From: Candidatus Zhuqueibacterota bacterium | GTDB taxonomy: Bacteria; KSB1; UBA2214 | DNA length: 5,083 nt | Assembly: GCA_022706175.1 (NCBI GenBank) | Contig: JAKJDB010000245.1 | Coordinates: 1-5,083, forward strand | Direction: 5' to 3' | Shown here: piece by piece, positions 1 to 5,083 of the stretch | How positions within the stretch are numbered: position 1 is the stretch's first letter | Layout of the letters: every line of letters starts with the position of its first letter | Made by a program: the position numbers and the translations under genes | Notes under the pieces: model-generated | The model's input: only the letters and a program-made list of their open reading frames with translations | What the model was told of the DNA's origin: nothing | The model's database searches: none

Positions 1-28
1 CAGTATGAGACCTGGCAATCATTTTGAG

Positions 29-57
29 ACAGGCCGGATCACTGACGATCCACCTAG
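29..57 (-). other. Newest spacer of the array (boundary tentative)
   Basis: This is the unique sequence between the two repeat copies: 29 nt if the repeat is 44 nt long, up to about 36 nt (29-64) if the repeat is about 37 nt. Being next to the leader it should be the most recently acquired spacer. It holds a small inverted pair, GGATC at 36-40 and GATCC at 47-51, around a 6-nt loop. That could be part of a hairpin in the source sequence or chance. No target can be named from the sequence alone. Confidence 0.6.
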
Positions 58-101
58 GTTTCAGGTCGCAATCCAGTATGAGACCTGGCAATCATTTTGA
101 G
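58..101 (-). repeat. First (leader-adjacent) CRISPR repeat, probable 44-nt unit
   Basis: Positions 74-101 are confirmed by the second copy at 1-28. Positions 58-73 are assigned by the GTTTC/GAAAC hallmark and the 6-bp inverted pair CAGGTC (62-67) and GACCTG (82-87), which has a 14-nt loop. The hexamer GCAATC also occurs twice within it, after each arm. The 5' end in transcript sense (CTCAAAATG) is firm because the match stops at 101. The 3' end is inferred. Confidence 0.6.
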
Positions 102-102
102 T

Positions 103-131
103 ATAATAGGAAAAATAGTTCAAAAAATCAA
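103..131 (-). promoter_or_regulatory. Candidate sigma70-type promoter for the CRISPR array
   Basis: On the minus strand TTGATT (131-126, 4 of 6 to TTGACA) is followed after exactly 17 bp by TATTAT (108-103, 5 of 6 to TATAAT). Transcription would start near position 96, just inside the first repeat, losing only a few bases of that repeat. The region is AT-rich, so a chance match is possible. The -35 box overlaps the IHF-like site. Confidence 0.4.
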
Positions 132-138
132 TAACTTG
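126..138 (+). promoter_or_regulatory. IHF-consensus-like site in the leader
   Basis: The 13 bases AATCAATAACTTG match the IHF consensus WATCAANNNNTTR at every defined position. The site begins 25 bp from the first repeat, close to where IHF bends the leader for spacer integration in the E. coli type I-E system. Whether this host uses IHF or a related HU-family protein here is unknown, and AT-rich DNA raises the chance of a random match. Confidence 0.35.
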
Positions 139-237
139 ATAAGATCTTGCCGCTGATCGCCTTGAAAAGGGAGTTAGATATTGTCTATTCTGATAAGGAT
201 TTGTTTAAAGAATGGCTGATAAGTACAATAATTTGCC

Positions 238-261
238 AATTTAGAGCATGGCCGCTAAATT
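238..261. repeat. 7-bp inverted repeat in the leader
   Basis: AATTTAG at 238-244 and CTAAATT at 255-261 are perfect inverted arms around a 10-nt centre (AGCATGGCCG). No T-run follows on either strand, so it does not look like an intrinsic terminator. It might be a protein-binding dyad or chance. Confidence 0.3.
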
Positions 262-327
262 CGATAGGGCTGTGTAAAATGCGTCAATGGCGGTAAGATA
301 TAAAAAATAATTGATTAAACATAAAAA

Positions 328-630
328 TCAAATAACTATAATACGGTCCTCATCTGCTTCCCGCCAACCGCGCTTTGTCCCCAAAGATAGAATCCTTTTA
401 CTGCAGGCTTGGCAAAGAAAGTATACGCGTAAACTGTCCTTTTTCAAATCGAGAAGCGGTTTGATCTGTTCAAGAAGGGTTTGAAACTGCGCCTTGTTCA
501 GGCAGCATTCGAAAACGCTGTACTGAACCCTCTGACCATAGTCCTGCAGCCGTTTTGCAACGCGCGTGCGTTTTTTATCGTCGATAATATCATAGGAAAT
601 CAACAAAAAACGTTTATTGTTCAATGACAT
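328..630 (-). CDS. cas2: CRISPR-associated protein Cas2
   Basis: This gene encodes a 100-residue Cas2, the usual size. Cas2 dimers bridge two Cas1 dimers in the spacer integration complex. The N-terminus is a ferredoxin-like first strand with the conserved aspartate, RFLLISYDIIDDKKR (D14). It is followed by the family pattern RLQDYGQRVQYSVFEC (about 26-41), a helix, and the last strand region DSLRVYFLCQAC with LGTKRG after it. I chose the ATG at 628-630. An in-frame GTG at 664-666 would add 12 residues (MQRFGNEGGITL) that are not typical of the family. The chosen start lies inside the end of cas1 (17-nt overlap including the cas1 stop), which suggests translational coupling. A G-rich Shine-Dalgarno-like stretch lies about 10 nt upstream, inside a small hairpin. 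The gene ends with TGA next to the leader. The family call is secure; nuclease activity is not implied. Confidence 0.95.
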   Translation of the reverse strand: MSLNNKRFLLISYDIIDDKKRTRVAKRLQDYGQRVQYSVFECCLNKAQFQTLLEQIKPLLDLKKDSLRVYFLCQACSKRILSLGTKRGWREADEDRIIVI

Positions 631-1597
631 AAGGGTGATACCCCCTTCGTTGCCGAATCGCTGCACTCAACCGCTGTACTTGTCGGCGCATCACCTCACG
701 ATAGGACTTGTTCTGATCTTCTCTGGCGCGCATCCAAGTTTCATACTGACCAAAGTATTTTTTAAGCGATGCTTCCTTTAAAAGGATTCCCCGTTCTTCG
801 TCCTGTTCAAAATCCGCTGTTTGAAAGATGCGTTTGTTGAACAGTTTCAATGTCAATCGATCAATGATGGGATGGCGAAATTCTTCGATCATGTCCAGCG
901 CCAGGGATGGGCGGCCATAGACAATGCCATGCAAAAAACCGATATAAGGATCAAACCCATGGGCGGTCAACAGGCCGGTCATTTCATTGGTCAACATGGT
1001 GTAACCCAGGCTTAATAGGGCATTGACCGGATCTTTGGGCGGTCGACGACTGCGTTGTTCAAAAGTCCATTCCGTGCGGAACAGTTTTCCGAATCCGCGA
1101 AAATAGGCCGCCGCTGCAACACCTTCACAGCCGCGCAGGGCGGCAACAGTTTTCTGCTCAGGCAACCGATCGAGGGTTTGCTCCAAAGTCCGCTCCTCGC
1201 TCGCCAGATCGCATGCTGGATGATTGCGGCCGTATTTTTTAAGCAAAGCCCGTGCATTTTTTAATTTTGCCTGCACGATCATTCGAACCAATTGCAGCTG
1301 AAAGGCCTCATCCAAGTACCGTTCATATTGGGATAAACGCAATAGCACATTCTTCGATTCGGCCGCCGCAAGCCGGCCGCGCAAGCGGCCCGAGATCGAG
1401 AAGAAAGCTACGTCGATGCCGCTGTCGAGCAGCAATTCCACCGCCTGCGTTGTCAGCTGCACACGGCCGAATAAGCACAGCCGTTCTATCTTGATCACAG
1501 GCCATTGGATTAATTTTTCCCCCTGTTTTTCCACATACAGGGTTCTGCTTTTTTGCCTGACTGTCGCGCCCTGTTCGCAAATGTAGACCGGATTCAT
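614..1597 (-). CDS. cas1: CRISPR-associated endonuclease/integrase Cas1
   Basis: Cas1 joins spacer DNA into the array at the leader-repeat junction as a complex with Cas2. The product is 327 residues, the usual length. Its N-terminal beta domain begins NPVYICEQGATVRQKSRTL and carries the typical KIERLCLFGRVQLTTQAVELL stretch. The alpha-helical catalytic domain has the three metal ligands: Glu158 in RGCEGVAAAAYF, His223 in DPYIGFLHG, and Asp235 in SLALDMIEEFRHP. The conserved DPVNALLSLGYTML segment is also present. I chose the ATG at 1595-1597 because family members normally start right at this strand. A TTG at 1625-1627 in the same frame would add ten residues and overlap the upstream gene by 11 nt. 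The RT gene lies directly upstream, in the order seen in RT-Cas1 fusions, but in a different frame, so here Cas1 is a separate protein. The 3' end overlaps cas2. Confidence 0.97.
   Translation of the reverse strand: MNPVYICEQGATVRQKSRTLYVEKQGEKLIQWPVIKIERLCLFGRVQLTTQAVELLLDSGIDVAFFSISGRLRGRLAAAESKNVLLRLSQYERYLDEAFQLQLVRMIVQAKLKNARALLKKYGRNHPACDLASEERTLEQTLDRLPEQKTVAALRGCEGVAAAAYFRGFGKLFRTEWTFEQRSRRPPKDPVNALLSLGYTMLTNEMTGLLTAHGFDPYIGFLHGIVYGRPSLALDMIEEFRHPIIDRLTLKLFNKRIFQTADFEQDEERGILLKEASLKKYFGQYETWMRAREDQNKSYREVMRRQVQRLSAAIRQRRGYHPYVIEQ
631..647 (-). promoter_or_regulatory. Hairpin over the cas2 ribosome-binding site, inside cas1
   Basis: In the mRNA, AAGGG (647-643) can pair with CCCUU (635-631) around a 7-nt loop, and the stem abuts the cas2 AUG. 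The G-run that would serve as Shine-Dalgarno sits in the stem and loop. Ribosomes finishing cas1 must cross it, because the cas1 stop lies downstream of the cas2 AUG. This arrangement would tie cas2 translation to cas1 translation. The sequence pairing is seen; the regulatory role is inferred. Confidence 0.4.
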
Positions 1598-1616: not shown

Positions 1617-4514
1617 TTATATTTCAAGAATCCAGGTTGTTTTATCGCTGCGGACTTGTCGTCGTAAACAGCCCCAAGGAGTCGGCAGTTCTACAAGTCC
1701 ACGTTTTTCAAAAACAATATTCAATTTTTCCTGCAGAGCTTGCAGCCGTTTTTGCACTTTGCGTTCATCCGCTTTAATTTTGAGCAATTGCCGCACCAAC
1801 AATTCAACGTCCGGCTCCAGGACCTCCGGCGTCGGCTCAGCGCTGTTTGTTGCCGGTTCTTCACGCGCTGGCAGAGTTGTCGCTGGAGCCGGCGTGGGAA
1901 TCTCTTTGGCTAAAGTCTGGATTGCTTGTCGAGTCAAAAGCTCGGAATATTTACGTTCACCACAGTGCAGCAAGGGTGAAGGATAATTGTTTTCGGATAA
2001 AGTAAATTGACAAAAGCATCCGATGGAGGGCGTTATTTCGTGATGCCACTGCCGTATTCTAGGACAGCTGAGCGGATTGCTTTTCAGGCGCAACAACCAT
2101 CGCTCGGTAATCCTGTGGCTGTAATTGGTGGTTTGCCGCATGACCGCGTGCAGGACCTCTTTTCCCAGTTCTCCCATAAAACCGACCACGCCTAAAAAAG
2201 TGAGTCTTTCGACATGGCTGAGGCGACCATCCTTTTGCGCCTTGTCGAATAAAAAATGTAAAACCCTGCATCCTTTGAAAAGTGCCTGTACCTCGGGATG
2301 ATTCAACGCCTGTTCAGGGTCGGCGTCTTGCGTGTTTTCAAGGCGGCTCCATTGTTGTAGTATTTGATAAAAATGATTTGAGCTGATCTGTTCCAACGAT
2401 GGCATGGGATAAAGCCAATCGGTATGAGGCCGACCATCCGAATCAAGGAACAGACATCGGCGACCGCTGGCTTGATGCACGCCGAATGGCAGTTTGATAA
2501 GACTGCCCATTCCTTTGTCGCCGGTTTCCTTACGTGGCAAGCTTTCTATGTTAACGCCTTCCGGCAGCGGGCCATGCAGACCGGCCAATCGTTTGCAAAA
2601 GAGGAGCAAGTCTTTTACCGGAATCGGTTCTGAAAAAAAGTACCATACATGCAGGCCTTTGGCGCCGGAATCTTCCAAATAGCCGGGCAGACCGTGCTGA
2701 TCCGTTTGCTTTTTCACCTGAAGCGCTGCTCGCAACACCAAATTCATCCAGAGTTGTCGGTCGCTCTCCTTTTTTATAAACTCTGATTGCACCTGTTTGT
2801 TCAGGTCGAAATCCAGCACGAGATGAAAGGCCGTCTGATCCGAACGGACTAAATAAAGTCCGAGGGTGTGTTGACCGCGCAGATGACCCGCCCAATCCTC
2901 CATTGTGAGGGCGCGGAATTGCGGCGTGTAGCCGATTCTGCCATCGGTGTTCAACCATTGTTTGGCAAATACCCCTTCGCGCCCTTTAAACGTTTGTTGC
3001 AGCTGTTCCAGATCCCTTTGTGTAAAAGGATAGTCGGTACGATCGGATTCTGATTTAAAAATAGGATCCTCTGCAATTCGTTGGAGAGATGGATCCAAAG
3101 CGATGGCTTGATGAAAGGATTTTAGAGCAGCGCCGGTTAAATGATATTTTTTCAAGGCCATGCCCAGGGCATAGTGGGCGAAGCCGAGCTGCGGTTGAAG
3201 CCCCACCGCTTTTTGTAAAAAGCGGATTGCTTTATCCAATTGTCCCTGCCTTAGATAAAGCATGCCCAACCAAAGGGCGGTTTCAGCATGATCCGGGTTT
3301 TCTCGCAGCGCGGCAATAAAGACATCTCGTGCTTCAGACTCGAGTCCGAGACACTGGCAAAGAAGTCCCCATTGCCAGTTTATTTCCGCTGATTGAATCG
3401 GCTCTTGACAGCCGGCAAGCGCTTCATGCGCTTTGGCAAAATCCCCTTGCTTGATCATCACTGCAGCGCGCAGCAGCGCAGACCCTATCGGTCCATCGAC
3501 CTGTTCGGCTGGATAGCCGGCGGCTGCGCTTTCCATTAGATTATTGCTGTTGAGATGAAAATAATTCGTCCATCCTCGGATAATTTGGTCTACTTTGTCG
3601 TTCATTTTTTCTTTTGTAATGGCATCCGGGTGATCCAGAACGTGGCGGAGATTTTCCTGTAAATGCTGCCACGCTGAGGGAGCCGGCCTTCGCCCCTCAA
3701 GATTGAAATGAAAACCGAGAAACACAAAACCTTTTTCGATTTTTCCTGCAAAGGTCTTTTTTAAATTCAGTGCCAAATGGACCTGTTTTAATCCGTCTTG
3801 AATTCGAGCAGCCGCTTCCGACTTTGTTGTTTCTTCCGAGGCAAGTACGAGGAGGTTGTCGCTGTAGCGGATATAGTTCCACTGATCCGACTGCACCAGC
3901 GCATCAAATTCGTTGAGATAAATATTCGAAAGAAGAGGAGAGAGAATCATCCCTTGAGGTATTCCCAGCCCGGAGGAGGTTTCCAACGCCAGCACCGGCT
4001 TGAGGATGAGCTCAATCAACGTGTCTTCGTCGAACTGGCGAGCCAGGAATGATTGTAAAAGCCGGCGGTCGATGGTGTCAAAAAAATTTTCAATGTCGGC
4101 GCTGAAAAACCAGGTCCGTCCTTTTTTAATCCACCGTTCCACCTTATCAGCGGCTTTGCTCGCTGATTTTCCGCTCCGATAGGCATAGGAACAAGACAGC
4201 AATTTTTTGTCCACTACCGGTTGAATAATCTGCAGAAGAGCATATTGTACCAATCGGTCCCGTAGCGCCGGTATATGCAGTGTGCGCGTCTTGTTGCCTT
4301 TAGTATGAGTAAAGGTCAGCAAGGGCAGCGGTTCATACGACCGATCGGCCACCATCTGCCGAACCAGACAAAGATTCGATTCAAGATTTGCAGCAAACTC
4401 GTCGACGGTTATCCGATCGATCCCCGGCGCCCCCATGTTGGCGCGTAAACGTTGCCAGGCCAGGGTGAAATTGCGCTTCTCGATAACCTGACGCCAGAGA
4501 GAATCGCCTTTCAT
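1617..4514 (-). CDS. Reverse transcriptase-TPR-primase/polymerase fusion protein (RT-CAPP type)
   Basis: This 965-residue multidomain protein is encoded in an adaptation operon. Residues 1-325 are a group II intron-like RT. They show GAPGIDRITVDEF (28-40), LHIPALRDRLVQYALL (79-94), motif A FFSADIENFFDTI (D140), motif B GIPQGMILSPLLSNIYL, and motif C YSDN (217-220) in place of YxDD. KGFVFLGFHF and a thumb-like IIRGWTNYFHL (311-321) follow. Residues about 343-479 form four TPR-like helical repeats with a 34-residue period. Residues about 495-700 are an archaeo-eukaryotic primase domain of the CAPP/TOTE sort: FKGREGVFAKQW, GYTPQF, the metal motif LDFD (D568, D570), SGAKGLHVW (H622) and SLIKLPFGVHQ. 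Residues about 745-855 have Cys749, Cys817, Cys833/835 and Cys851, like a primase large-subunit Fe-S domain. A Pro/Ala/Glu-rich linker (about 870-900), a coiled coil and a small tail end the protein. The ATG has a strong AGGAGAG Shine-Dalgarno. Likely role: making DNA from RNA or ssDNA spacer precursors (inferred). Confidence 0.95.
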   Translation of the reverse strand: MKGDSLWRQVIEKRNFTLAWQRLRANMGAPGIDRITVDEFAANLESNLCLVRQMVADRSYEPLPLLTFTHTKGNKTRTLHIPALRDRLVQYALLQIIQPVVDKKLLSCSYAYRSGKSASKAADKVERWIKKGRTWFFSADIENFFDTIDRRLLQSFLARQFDEDTLIELILKPVLALETSSGLGIPQGMILSPLLSNIYLNEFDALVQSDQWNYIRYSDNLLVLASEETTKSEAAARIQDGLKQVHLALNLKKTFAGKIEKGFVFLGFHFNLEGRRPAPSAWQHLQENLRHVLDHPDAITKEKMNDKVDQIIRGWTNYFHLNSNNLMESAAAGYPAEQVDGPIGSALLRAAVMIKQGDFAKAHEALAGCQEPIQSAEINWQWGLLCQCLGLESEARDVFIAALRENPDHAETALWLGMLYLRQGQLDKAIRFLQKAVGLQPQLGFAHYALGMALKKYHLTGAALKSFHQAIALDPSLQRIAEDPIFKSESDRTDYPFTQRDLEQLQQTFKGREGVFAKQWLNTDGRIGYTPQFRALTMEDWAGHLRGQHTLGLYLVRSDQTAFHLVLDFDLNKQVQSEFIKKESDRQLWMNLVLRAALQVKKQTDQHGLPGYLEDSGAKGLHVWYFFSEPIPVKDLLLFCKRLAGLHGPLPEGVNIESLPRKETGDKGMGSLIKLPFGVHQASGRRCLFLDSDGRPHTDWLYPMPSLEQISSNHFYQILQQWSRLENTQDADPEQALNHPEVQALFKGCRVLHFLFDKAQKDGRLSHVERLTFLGVVGFMGELGKEVLHAVMRQTTNYSHRITERWLLRLKSNPLSCPRIRQWHHEITPSIGCFCQFTLSENNYPSPLLHCGERKYSELLTRQAIQTLAKEIPTPAPATTLPAREEPATNSAEPTPEVLEPDVELLVRQLLKIKADERKVQKRLQALQEKLNIVFEKRGLVELPTPWGCLRRQVRSDKTTWILEI

Positions 4515-4549: not shown

Positions 4550-5083
4550 TTAGGGGCTGATCAGATATTTGCCCATTCCAAAGCTGGTGTTTTTGCCGAT
4601 GTGAAGGTATTCTCCCAAACGGAGCAGAGGCAGGAAGAGGGCAAAATTTCCCTGCAGGCGGATCTCCCCGACCAATCCTCCCAACTGCATTCGACGTTGT
4701 TGCCGGTTAGAATAACGCTCCCAGTCCCACCAGCGTAATTGCGAGGAGAGCGTACGGATGCAGGACGCTTGCTGAAGAATGGCCGAATAATCCAGCAACC
4801 ATTTCTGCGGCGTATGAATCTCGGCCAACAGGGAAGCCCGCCGCAACAGGTTTCGAAACAGAAGCGAAAAAGAGAGCTCCTGGCACAACTTGCCCATTTC
4901 CGTGATTCGCAAGGGTGTGGATATAGTCAGGGAGAGTGCATCCGGGATAAAATCAGCGACAAAATCAGGCGGCTGCCGCAGCCAGGGTTGGTTCTTCAAT
5001 ATTCCGTCGGCAGCGGAATAGATCTCCTGATCCTGCTCATTATGCACGCTGAGCAAGGAGAACTTGCCGCGCTGTCTGCCTAA
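4550..5083 (-). CDS. cas6: CRISPR pre-crRNA endoribonuclease Cas6 (C-terminal part, 5' end outside window)
   Basis: The frame is open to the right edge, so only the last 177 residues are seen; full Cas6 of this kind is roughly 250-300 residues. Cas6 cuts the array transcript within each repeat to release crRNA units. The visible part starts in a mid-protein segment, LGRQRGKFSLLSV, then has a helical region, and ends with the hallmark C-terminal RAMP features. These are WWDWERYSNRQQRRMQLGG, GLVGEIRLQGNFALFLPLL, and the glycine-rich loop HIGKNTSFGMGKY four residues before the end. The catalytic residue of Cas6 is usually an N-terminal-half histidine and is not visible here. A TTG at 5054-5056 could be read as a start but falls inside conserved sequence, so I treat the gene as cut by the window. 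It ends in TAA 35 nt upstream of the RT fusion gene, apparently the same operon. Confidence 0.9.
   Translation of the reverse strand, partial: LGRQRGKFSLLSVHNEQDQEIYSAADGILKNQPWLRQPPDFVADFIPDALSLTISTPLRITEMGKLCQELSFSLLFRNLLRRASLLAEIHTPQKWLLDYSAILQQASCIRTLSSQLRWWDWERYSNRQQRRMQLGGLVGEIRLQGNFALFLPLLRLGEYLHIGKNTSFGMGKYLISP

Follow-up and report, generated by a model that had tools for sequence, protein, structure and literature searches.

The gene at positions 1617..4514 on the (-) strand of the 5,083-nt stretch of DNA analyzed here (the window) encodes a genuine fusion of a reverse transcriptase (RT) with a primase-polymerase in a single ORF of 965 aa. Its existence is confirmed, and with the domain order RT-TPR-AEP-CTD-Gam it is a variant of the already published kind in which an RT is joined to a CRISPR-associated primase-polymerase (CAPP), the RT-CAPPs. 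Codons 217-220 of the fusion (3855..3866, (-) strand) specify YSDN where YxDD is expected, as seen in the translation and in the alignment of homologues. This YxDN change recurs in the RT-CAPP family, and all four loci with a fused primase that has lost its catalytic motif encode a second CAPP nearby. The fusion might best be explained as an enzyme with two polymerases that serves adaptation in a type III-like CRISPR system, with a live AEP domain and an RT that would handle RNA with altered metal use; we give this reading an even chance of being correct.

All domains are encoded on the (-) strand. Residues 1-325 (3540..4514) form a group II-like reverse transcriptase region with the catalytic residues D140 and D219. 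It is followed by a TPR region of four helical hairpins (residues 343-474; 3093..3488; Pfam TPR at 394-476, model helices at 343-473), an archaeo-eukaryotic primase (AEP, Prim-Pol) domain with the motifs LDFD and SGAKGLH (residues 495-720; 2355..3032), a PriL-like C-terminal domain with the four cysteines C749, C817, C833, and C835 (residues 735-859; 1938..2312), and a Mu Gam/Sipho Gp157-like tail of the TOTE type (residues 906-965; 1620..1799; PF22709, 1.4e-9). These assignments, based on Pfam and NCBIfam profile matches and a structure model, bear out the domain calls of an earlier sequence-only reading (RT at 1-325, TPR, AEP at 495-700, a four-cysteine region, and an extra tail). With respect to the RT motifs, that reading had correctly recognized the domain but missed the altered catalytic motif YSDN. 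The profile search it had proposed for residues 495-700 detected an AEP domain, and NCBIfam NF040561 (CAPP type A1) scored 311.2 bits over residues 354-879 of the fusion, with a cut-off of 200. An alignment with MsCAPP places the Prim-Pol motifs that characterize CAPP type A1 at D568, D570, S616...H622, and E657, the last of which is, in our own reading, the motif III acidic residue. The predicted AEP model aligns with the MsCAPP structure along its full length at about 25% identity. All four cysteines of the PriL-like domain are kept in 109 of the 112 rows having that domain. Three TPR-CAPPs without RT (P0028, P0029, and P0043), which form one clade (100/100), have lost the AEP catalytic residues; P0028 and P0029 retain the four cysteines.

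The gene order on the (-) strand of the window is cas6, fusion, cas1, cas2, probable leader, and CRISPR. The cas6 gene is represented by its C-terminal part and runs past the window edge (4550..5083; Pfam CRISPR_Cas6, 9.6e-20). Judging from the translation, cas1 (614..1597, (-) strand) likely starts with the ATG at 1597; a longer frame from 1627 matched Cas_Cas1 with 1.7e-94. The translation of cas2 (328..630, (-) strand; CRISPR_Cas2, 4.2e-25 on 328-618) begins with an ATG at 630 and overlaps the end of cas1. These two profile matches beside the fusion agree with the earlier claim that a chain carrying RT and primase adjoins cas1-cas2, and the fusion has the operonic association with cas1 and cas2 by which CAPP type A1 is recognized. 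The interval between cas2 and the first repeat is a probable leader by its position (102..327, (-) strand). It is followed on the same strand by the leader-proximal CRISPR repeat of 37 nt (65..101), which shares 29 of 37 bases with the 37-nt repeat of the array at a KSB1 locus (L001), by a single spacer of 36 nt (29..64), and by a second repeat truncated at the window end (1..28). A comparison of the window with Rfam gave nothing at the gathering threshold.

The effector genes of the window fusion fall outside the window. At L001, whose fusion is 55% identical to that of the window, csm1-csm5, a csm6-like gene, and cas6 precede the fusion; cas1, cas2, and an array with 17 or more repeats follow it. 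Among 27 fusion genomes, 6 had a Csm1 match above cut-off. The spacers of the L001 array had no match in phages or plasmids, the 21-nt core of the window spacer had none in viral_contigs, and the L004 array gave one chance-level match to phages (E 0.4). Two YxDN fusions are immediately preceded by other genes, namely one for a Card1-like CARF nuclease (L006, 1113-2243) and one for a Csm6-like HEPN protein (L010, 4155-5441). At L003, 32-bp tandem repeats lie in the interval between cas2 and the CRISPR array (8417-8576).

A protein search with the AEP-to-tail half of the fusion gave 31 proteins, 13 of which are full-length RT-TPR-AEP-tail fusions. In a genome scan with one genome per species, covering 84,980 species, 80 loci of 130 relatives were kept, and 28 of these loci contain an RT-AEP fusion, which is broken in L014 and L029. 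Their hosts include KSB1, Nitrospinota, Planctomycetota, Verrucomicrobiota, methanogen-related archaea, and others. Either cas1 or cas2 is present at 27 of the 28 loci, the exception (L002) being a short contig, and cas6 at 13. The broken fusion of L014 (3594-6439), from a Methanophagales archaeon, is interrupted between the RT part and the remainder. The MAG DBS1-1.bin125 has two different RT-CAPP loci (L011, 5542-8439; L029, 4641-6857), and most of the RT is missing from the L029 ORF. A tree of AEP+CTD was calculated without 8 near-duplicate proteins and without fusions whose AEP scored below 75 bits, whose CTD gave no hit, or whose stretch was shorter than 250 aa, which included the fusions of L047, L053, and L068. 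It requires three changes between RT-bearing and stand-alone CAPPs, two of which, as read, are the broken L014 and the distant P0030; therefore, a single old fusion fits these data, from which three fusions whose AEP has decayed are absent. Searching plasmids with the complete fusion gave at least 5000 records, none of which covered 80% of the query; the 15 matches listed align only to query residues 2-377, which are mainly RT, and 11 of these 15 are annotated as group II RT.

The statement of the sequence-only reading that CAPPs and RT-CAPP fusions are known in outline holds true, since such fusions (CART-CAPPs) of Caloramator australicus (CCJ33120) and Geobacillus lituanicus are already in print, as described in the accessible portions of PMC8211822 and PMC10415136. 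The window fusion likewise carries the RT N-terminal to the Prim-Pol domain in a single chain, but adds a TPR block between RT and AEP as well as the Gam-like tail. According to the same portions of these papers, the two assayed members have an intact catalytic DD pair, an active RT, and a primase domain found inactive in vitro, whereas the window fusion has YSDN at this position and AEP residues that are intact as judged from the sequence. It has the TPR, the AEP, and the cysteine-bearing C-terminal domain in common with the CAPP-TPR type of Marinitoga piezophila (MpCAPP) and Marinitoga sp. 1137 (MsCAPP; 7nqf/7p9j), but only the window fusion begins with an RT and ends in a Gam-like tail. With group II intron RT/maturases and RT-Cas1 proteins it shares the RT fold and motifs, with approximately 20-33% identity among the group II matches listed. 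The scores for TIGR04416 (238.1 of 300 bits) and GIIM (19.2 of 23 bits) both remained below the cut-offs for a group II intron RT/maturase and, unlike in RT-Cas1, the RT is fused to a primase instead of Cas1. UG10 RTs with a fused AE_Prim_S also unite RT and primase in one protein; the available text of PMC8934634 names UG10 as a separate RT class. In PMC10910872, of which a figure legend was at hand, RVT, AEP, and PrimPol appear among adaptation-module associations, and the RT-primase architecture may have been noticed there. Neither the recurrent YxDN of RT-CAPPs nor the pattern of a second CAPP at all four lost-primase loci was found described in the accessible parts of PMC8211822, PMC10415136, PMC6013744, PMC5541045, PMC8934634, PMC10910872, PMC12669027, PMC10345425, and PMC5513706, with subscription papers, preprints, and supplements lying outside this scope.

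YxDN is present in 10 of the 13 full-length fusions of the first alignment and, on the AEP tree, in 13 of the 42 rows that represent fusions. Among RTs outside the RT-CAPP family, 115 of 116 have YxDD (those left of the best 120 among 634 hits after removal of the family partials P0045-P0048). The sole YxDN protein in this outside group as listed is P0119 (322 aa, YADN), which was named Cas1 by JGI and is perhaps CRISPR-linked; it has a long branch and its placement is unsure. An RT tree of 70 rows, calculated with the motif columns left out, required five D/N changes, or four without P0119, and the AEP+CTD tree, in which RT columns are not included, required four. YxDN as one clade was rejected on the RT tree (p-AU 2e-11; 6.7e-81 without P0119) and on the AEP+CTD tree (p-AU 1.7e-5), values to be read with the reservation that the AU test presumes a group named beforehand and that a first tree had already been inspected. 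In the first RT tree, long branches united L018 and L043; the second was calculated without P0041, L018, L043, P0001, P0003, short rows, and about 5/6 of the background RTs. The phylogeny of the RT and AEP parts, which had been proposed as a check, was thus carried out, and both trees give at least four D/N state changes, some of which could be reversals. A single inherited change or mere noise as the origin of YxDN was rejected on the basis of these trees and the YxDD of the outside RTs.

In the 15 YxDN RTs compared, R77, R85, R113, D140, F145, G184, Q187, G188, P193, R216, D219, and K253 are invariant; F144 is replaced in one of them and D146 in two. Position 138, two residues before the catalytic D140, is always Asp in the nearest YxDD RTs (12 of 12), as against 7 of the 15 YxDN RTs. 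The variation at 138, F144, and D146 could reflect a loosened constraint. A general decay of the RT in YxDN lineages is unsupported, as the ratio of RT to AEP end branches after pruning had a median of 0.68 for 13 YxDN rows versus 0.76 for 27 YxDD rows (p 0.82). Mutation of the GDD aspartates of poliovirus polymerase reportedly alters its metal needs, according to a title in a reference list. In structure 8bgj, a single metal is held by D73, I74, and D154, not by D155 (PMC10415136, accessible part), so that the observed ligand within the pair is its first Asp. Taken together, the 8bgj ligand and the poliovirus title lead us to favor, with modest confidence, a YxDN RT that would be active with altered metal use over one that is dead.

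The alternative that the YxDN RT does not polymerize and persists as an RNA- or hybrid-binding arm, with all DNA synthesis in the lineage left to the AEP, is a serious possibility, but one we rather doubt. In its favor, a residue of the catalytic triad was replaced, with at least four state changes and with DxD and SxH of the AEP intact each time, and position 138 varies among YxDN RTs. In addition, DN double mutants of several RTs (PMC10415136) and of HIV-1 RT (PMC5498913) are described as inactive in the text available from these papers, although these are not single changes of the second Asp. However, the twelve other active-site residues are fixed in all 15 YxDN RTs and the RT domain evolves no faster, whereas domains that look truly dead, such as the AEP of L047, L053, and L068, lose several motif residues together, L061 being a milder case.

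Both DxD and SxH of the AEP are retained at 24 of the 28 fusion loci. In L047, L053, L061, and L068 the fused AEP lacks DxD, three of them also lack motif II, and the RT stays YxDD. Counted by proteins, DxD and SxH are intact in 13/13 YxDN fusions compared to 21/25 YxDD fusions; YxDN and a lost AEP never occur in one protein (0/13 vs. 4/25), an exclusion that is not significant (p 0.28). A second, stand-alone CAPP is present at all four loci with a lost AEP, which represent at least three RT lineages. The 24 loci that keep the fused AEP intact show none in their visible flanks, many of which are short and on MAG contigs (Fisher p 4.9e-5, ignoring kinship, with L053 and L068 being sisters on the RT tree). 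When at least 3 kb had to be visible on both sides, a limit not imposed on the four, the ratio was 4/4 to 0/5 (p 0.008). DxD and SxH of the second CAPP are intact in L047, L053, and L061, and the one of L053 runs past the contig end; the L068 copy contains a stop, and neither motif I nor motif II is readable in its ORFs. The Myxococcota locus L043 (9782-14566), which has cas6, cas1, and cas2 and encodes a YADD RT near a stand-alone CAPP with intact motifs, was left out of the fusion count, as the RT has no detectable AEP. Exactly one AEP-TOTE gene was found in 18 of 23 genomes with an intact fused AEP, these being MAGs of undefined completeness. Three of the remaining genomes carry one additional strong match each (273-314 bits), taken by score alone to be TOTE-system primases; another has the second RT-CAPP, that of L029, and the fifth has three further matches. 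The count in 27 whole genomes points in the same direction as the second-CAPP pattern.

According to the part of PMC10415136 available, the RT of two CART-CAPPs performed both priming and extension in vitro and the primase domain showed no activity, a situation that the authors suggest is common. A scheme in which the primase primes and the RT copies is therefore no safe default. Still, we consider it improbable that the window fusion follows the proposal for the Caloramator and Geobacillus proteins, with the RT responsible for all priming and extension and the AEP an inert remnant. These published assays favor the proposal, but the AEP motifs are conserved at most fusion loci, loss of the fused AEP coincides with a second CAPP in 4/4 cases, the AEP model matches MsCAPP from end to end, and in the lineage of the window the loss of a catalytic residue is on the RT side. 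The retention of the AEP, and the additional CAPP at loci whose fusion has lost it, suggest that both activities seem to be needed at RT-CAPP loci, contrary to what has been suggested in print, namely that the RT as a rule takes the place of the primase. The earlier interpretation survives in part: two polymerase domains sharing the work of spacer acquisition would fit the AEP data, but that reading took no account of the altered RT motif or of the inactive published primase, and the step it assigned to the primase, making either a primer for the RT or the second strand, is a conjecture.

That the fusion is an assembly artefact or a gene in decay, as might be suspected from its occurrence in one window only and from broken relatives such as L014, is hardly credible in view of the identical architecture in many independent records and the cas1 or cas2 genes beside all but one of the fusion loci; two ORFs joined in assembly, an alternative raised by the sequence-only reading, are ruled out by the independent full-length homologues.

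Stand-alone CAPPs prime and extend on DNA and prefer DNA templates, MpCAPP primes poorly on RNA, and MpCAPP binds Cas1, as reported in the accessible part of PMC8211822. If the fusion is a two-polymerase adaptation enzyme, it would be produced from one operon with cas6, cas1, and cas2. Its live AEP, aided by the PriL-like domain, would start strands de novo and copy DNA, and its RT would take RNA templates, which are poor substrates for the stand-alone CAPPs that were assayed. The YxDN RT would most likely bind the main catalytic metal via D140 and D219 and make DNA slowly or with another metal preference, so that the AEP would bear more of the synthesis. The resulting duplex prespacers would be handed over to Cas1-Cas2 by a putative docking interaction. 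In this explanation, the domains, the state of the motifs, the gene order, the repeated D/N change, the kept AEP residues, and the extra CAPP at loci with a lost fused AEP are observed; we infer the activities, the docking to Cas1-Cas2, the order of steps, and the altered metal use.

The question addressed by these proteins is how RT-primase fusions convert invader RNA or DNA into spacers, and the assayed members, as presented in the accessible literature, suggest an inert primase. We tentatively propose, with slightly less than even confidence, that RT-CAPPs are obligate two-polymerase machines in which the catalytic load can shift either way: YxDD would have repeatedly changed to YxDN, making the RT a specialized RNA-template enzyme or a clamp and the primase the main polymerase, and elsewhere the fused primase would die only beside a second stand-alone primase. 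If true, this would represent a recurrent switch in the active site of a CRISPR RT, in the direction opposite to the published model of an inert primase. The family provides natural versions with a changed RT and a kept primase and others with a lost primase and a second one alongside, so that the division of labor would be directly testable by comparison, and its YxDN members offer a test of whether a YxDN reverse transcriptase can work.
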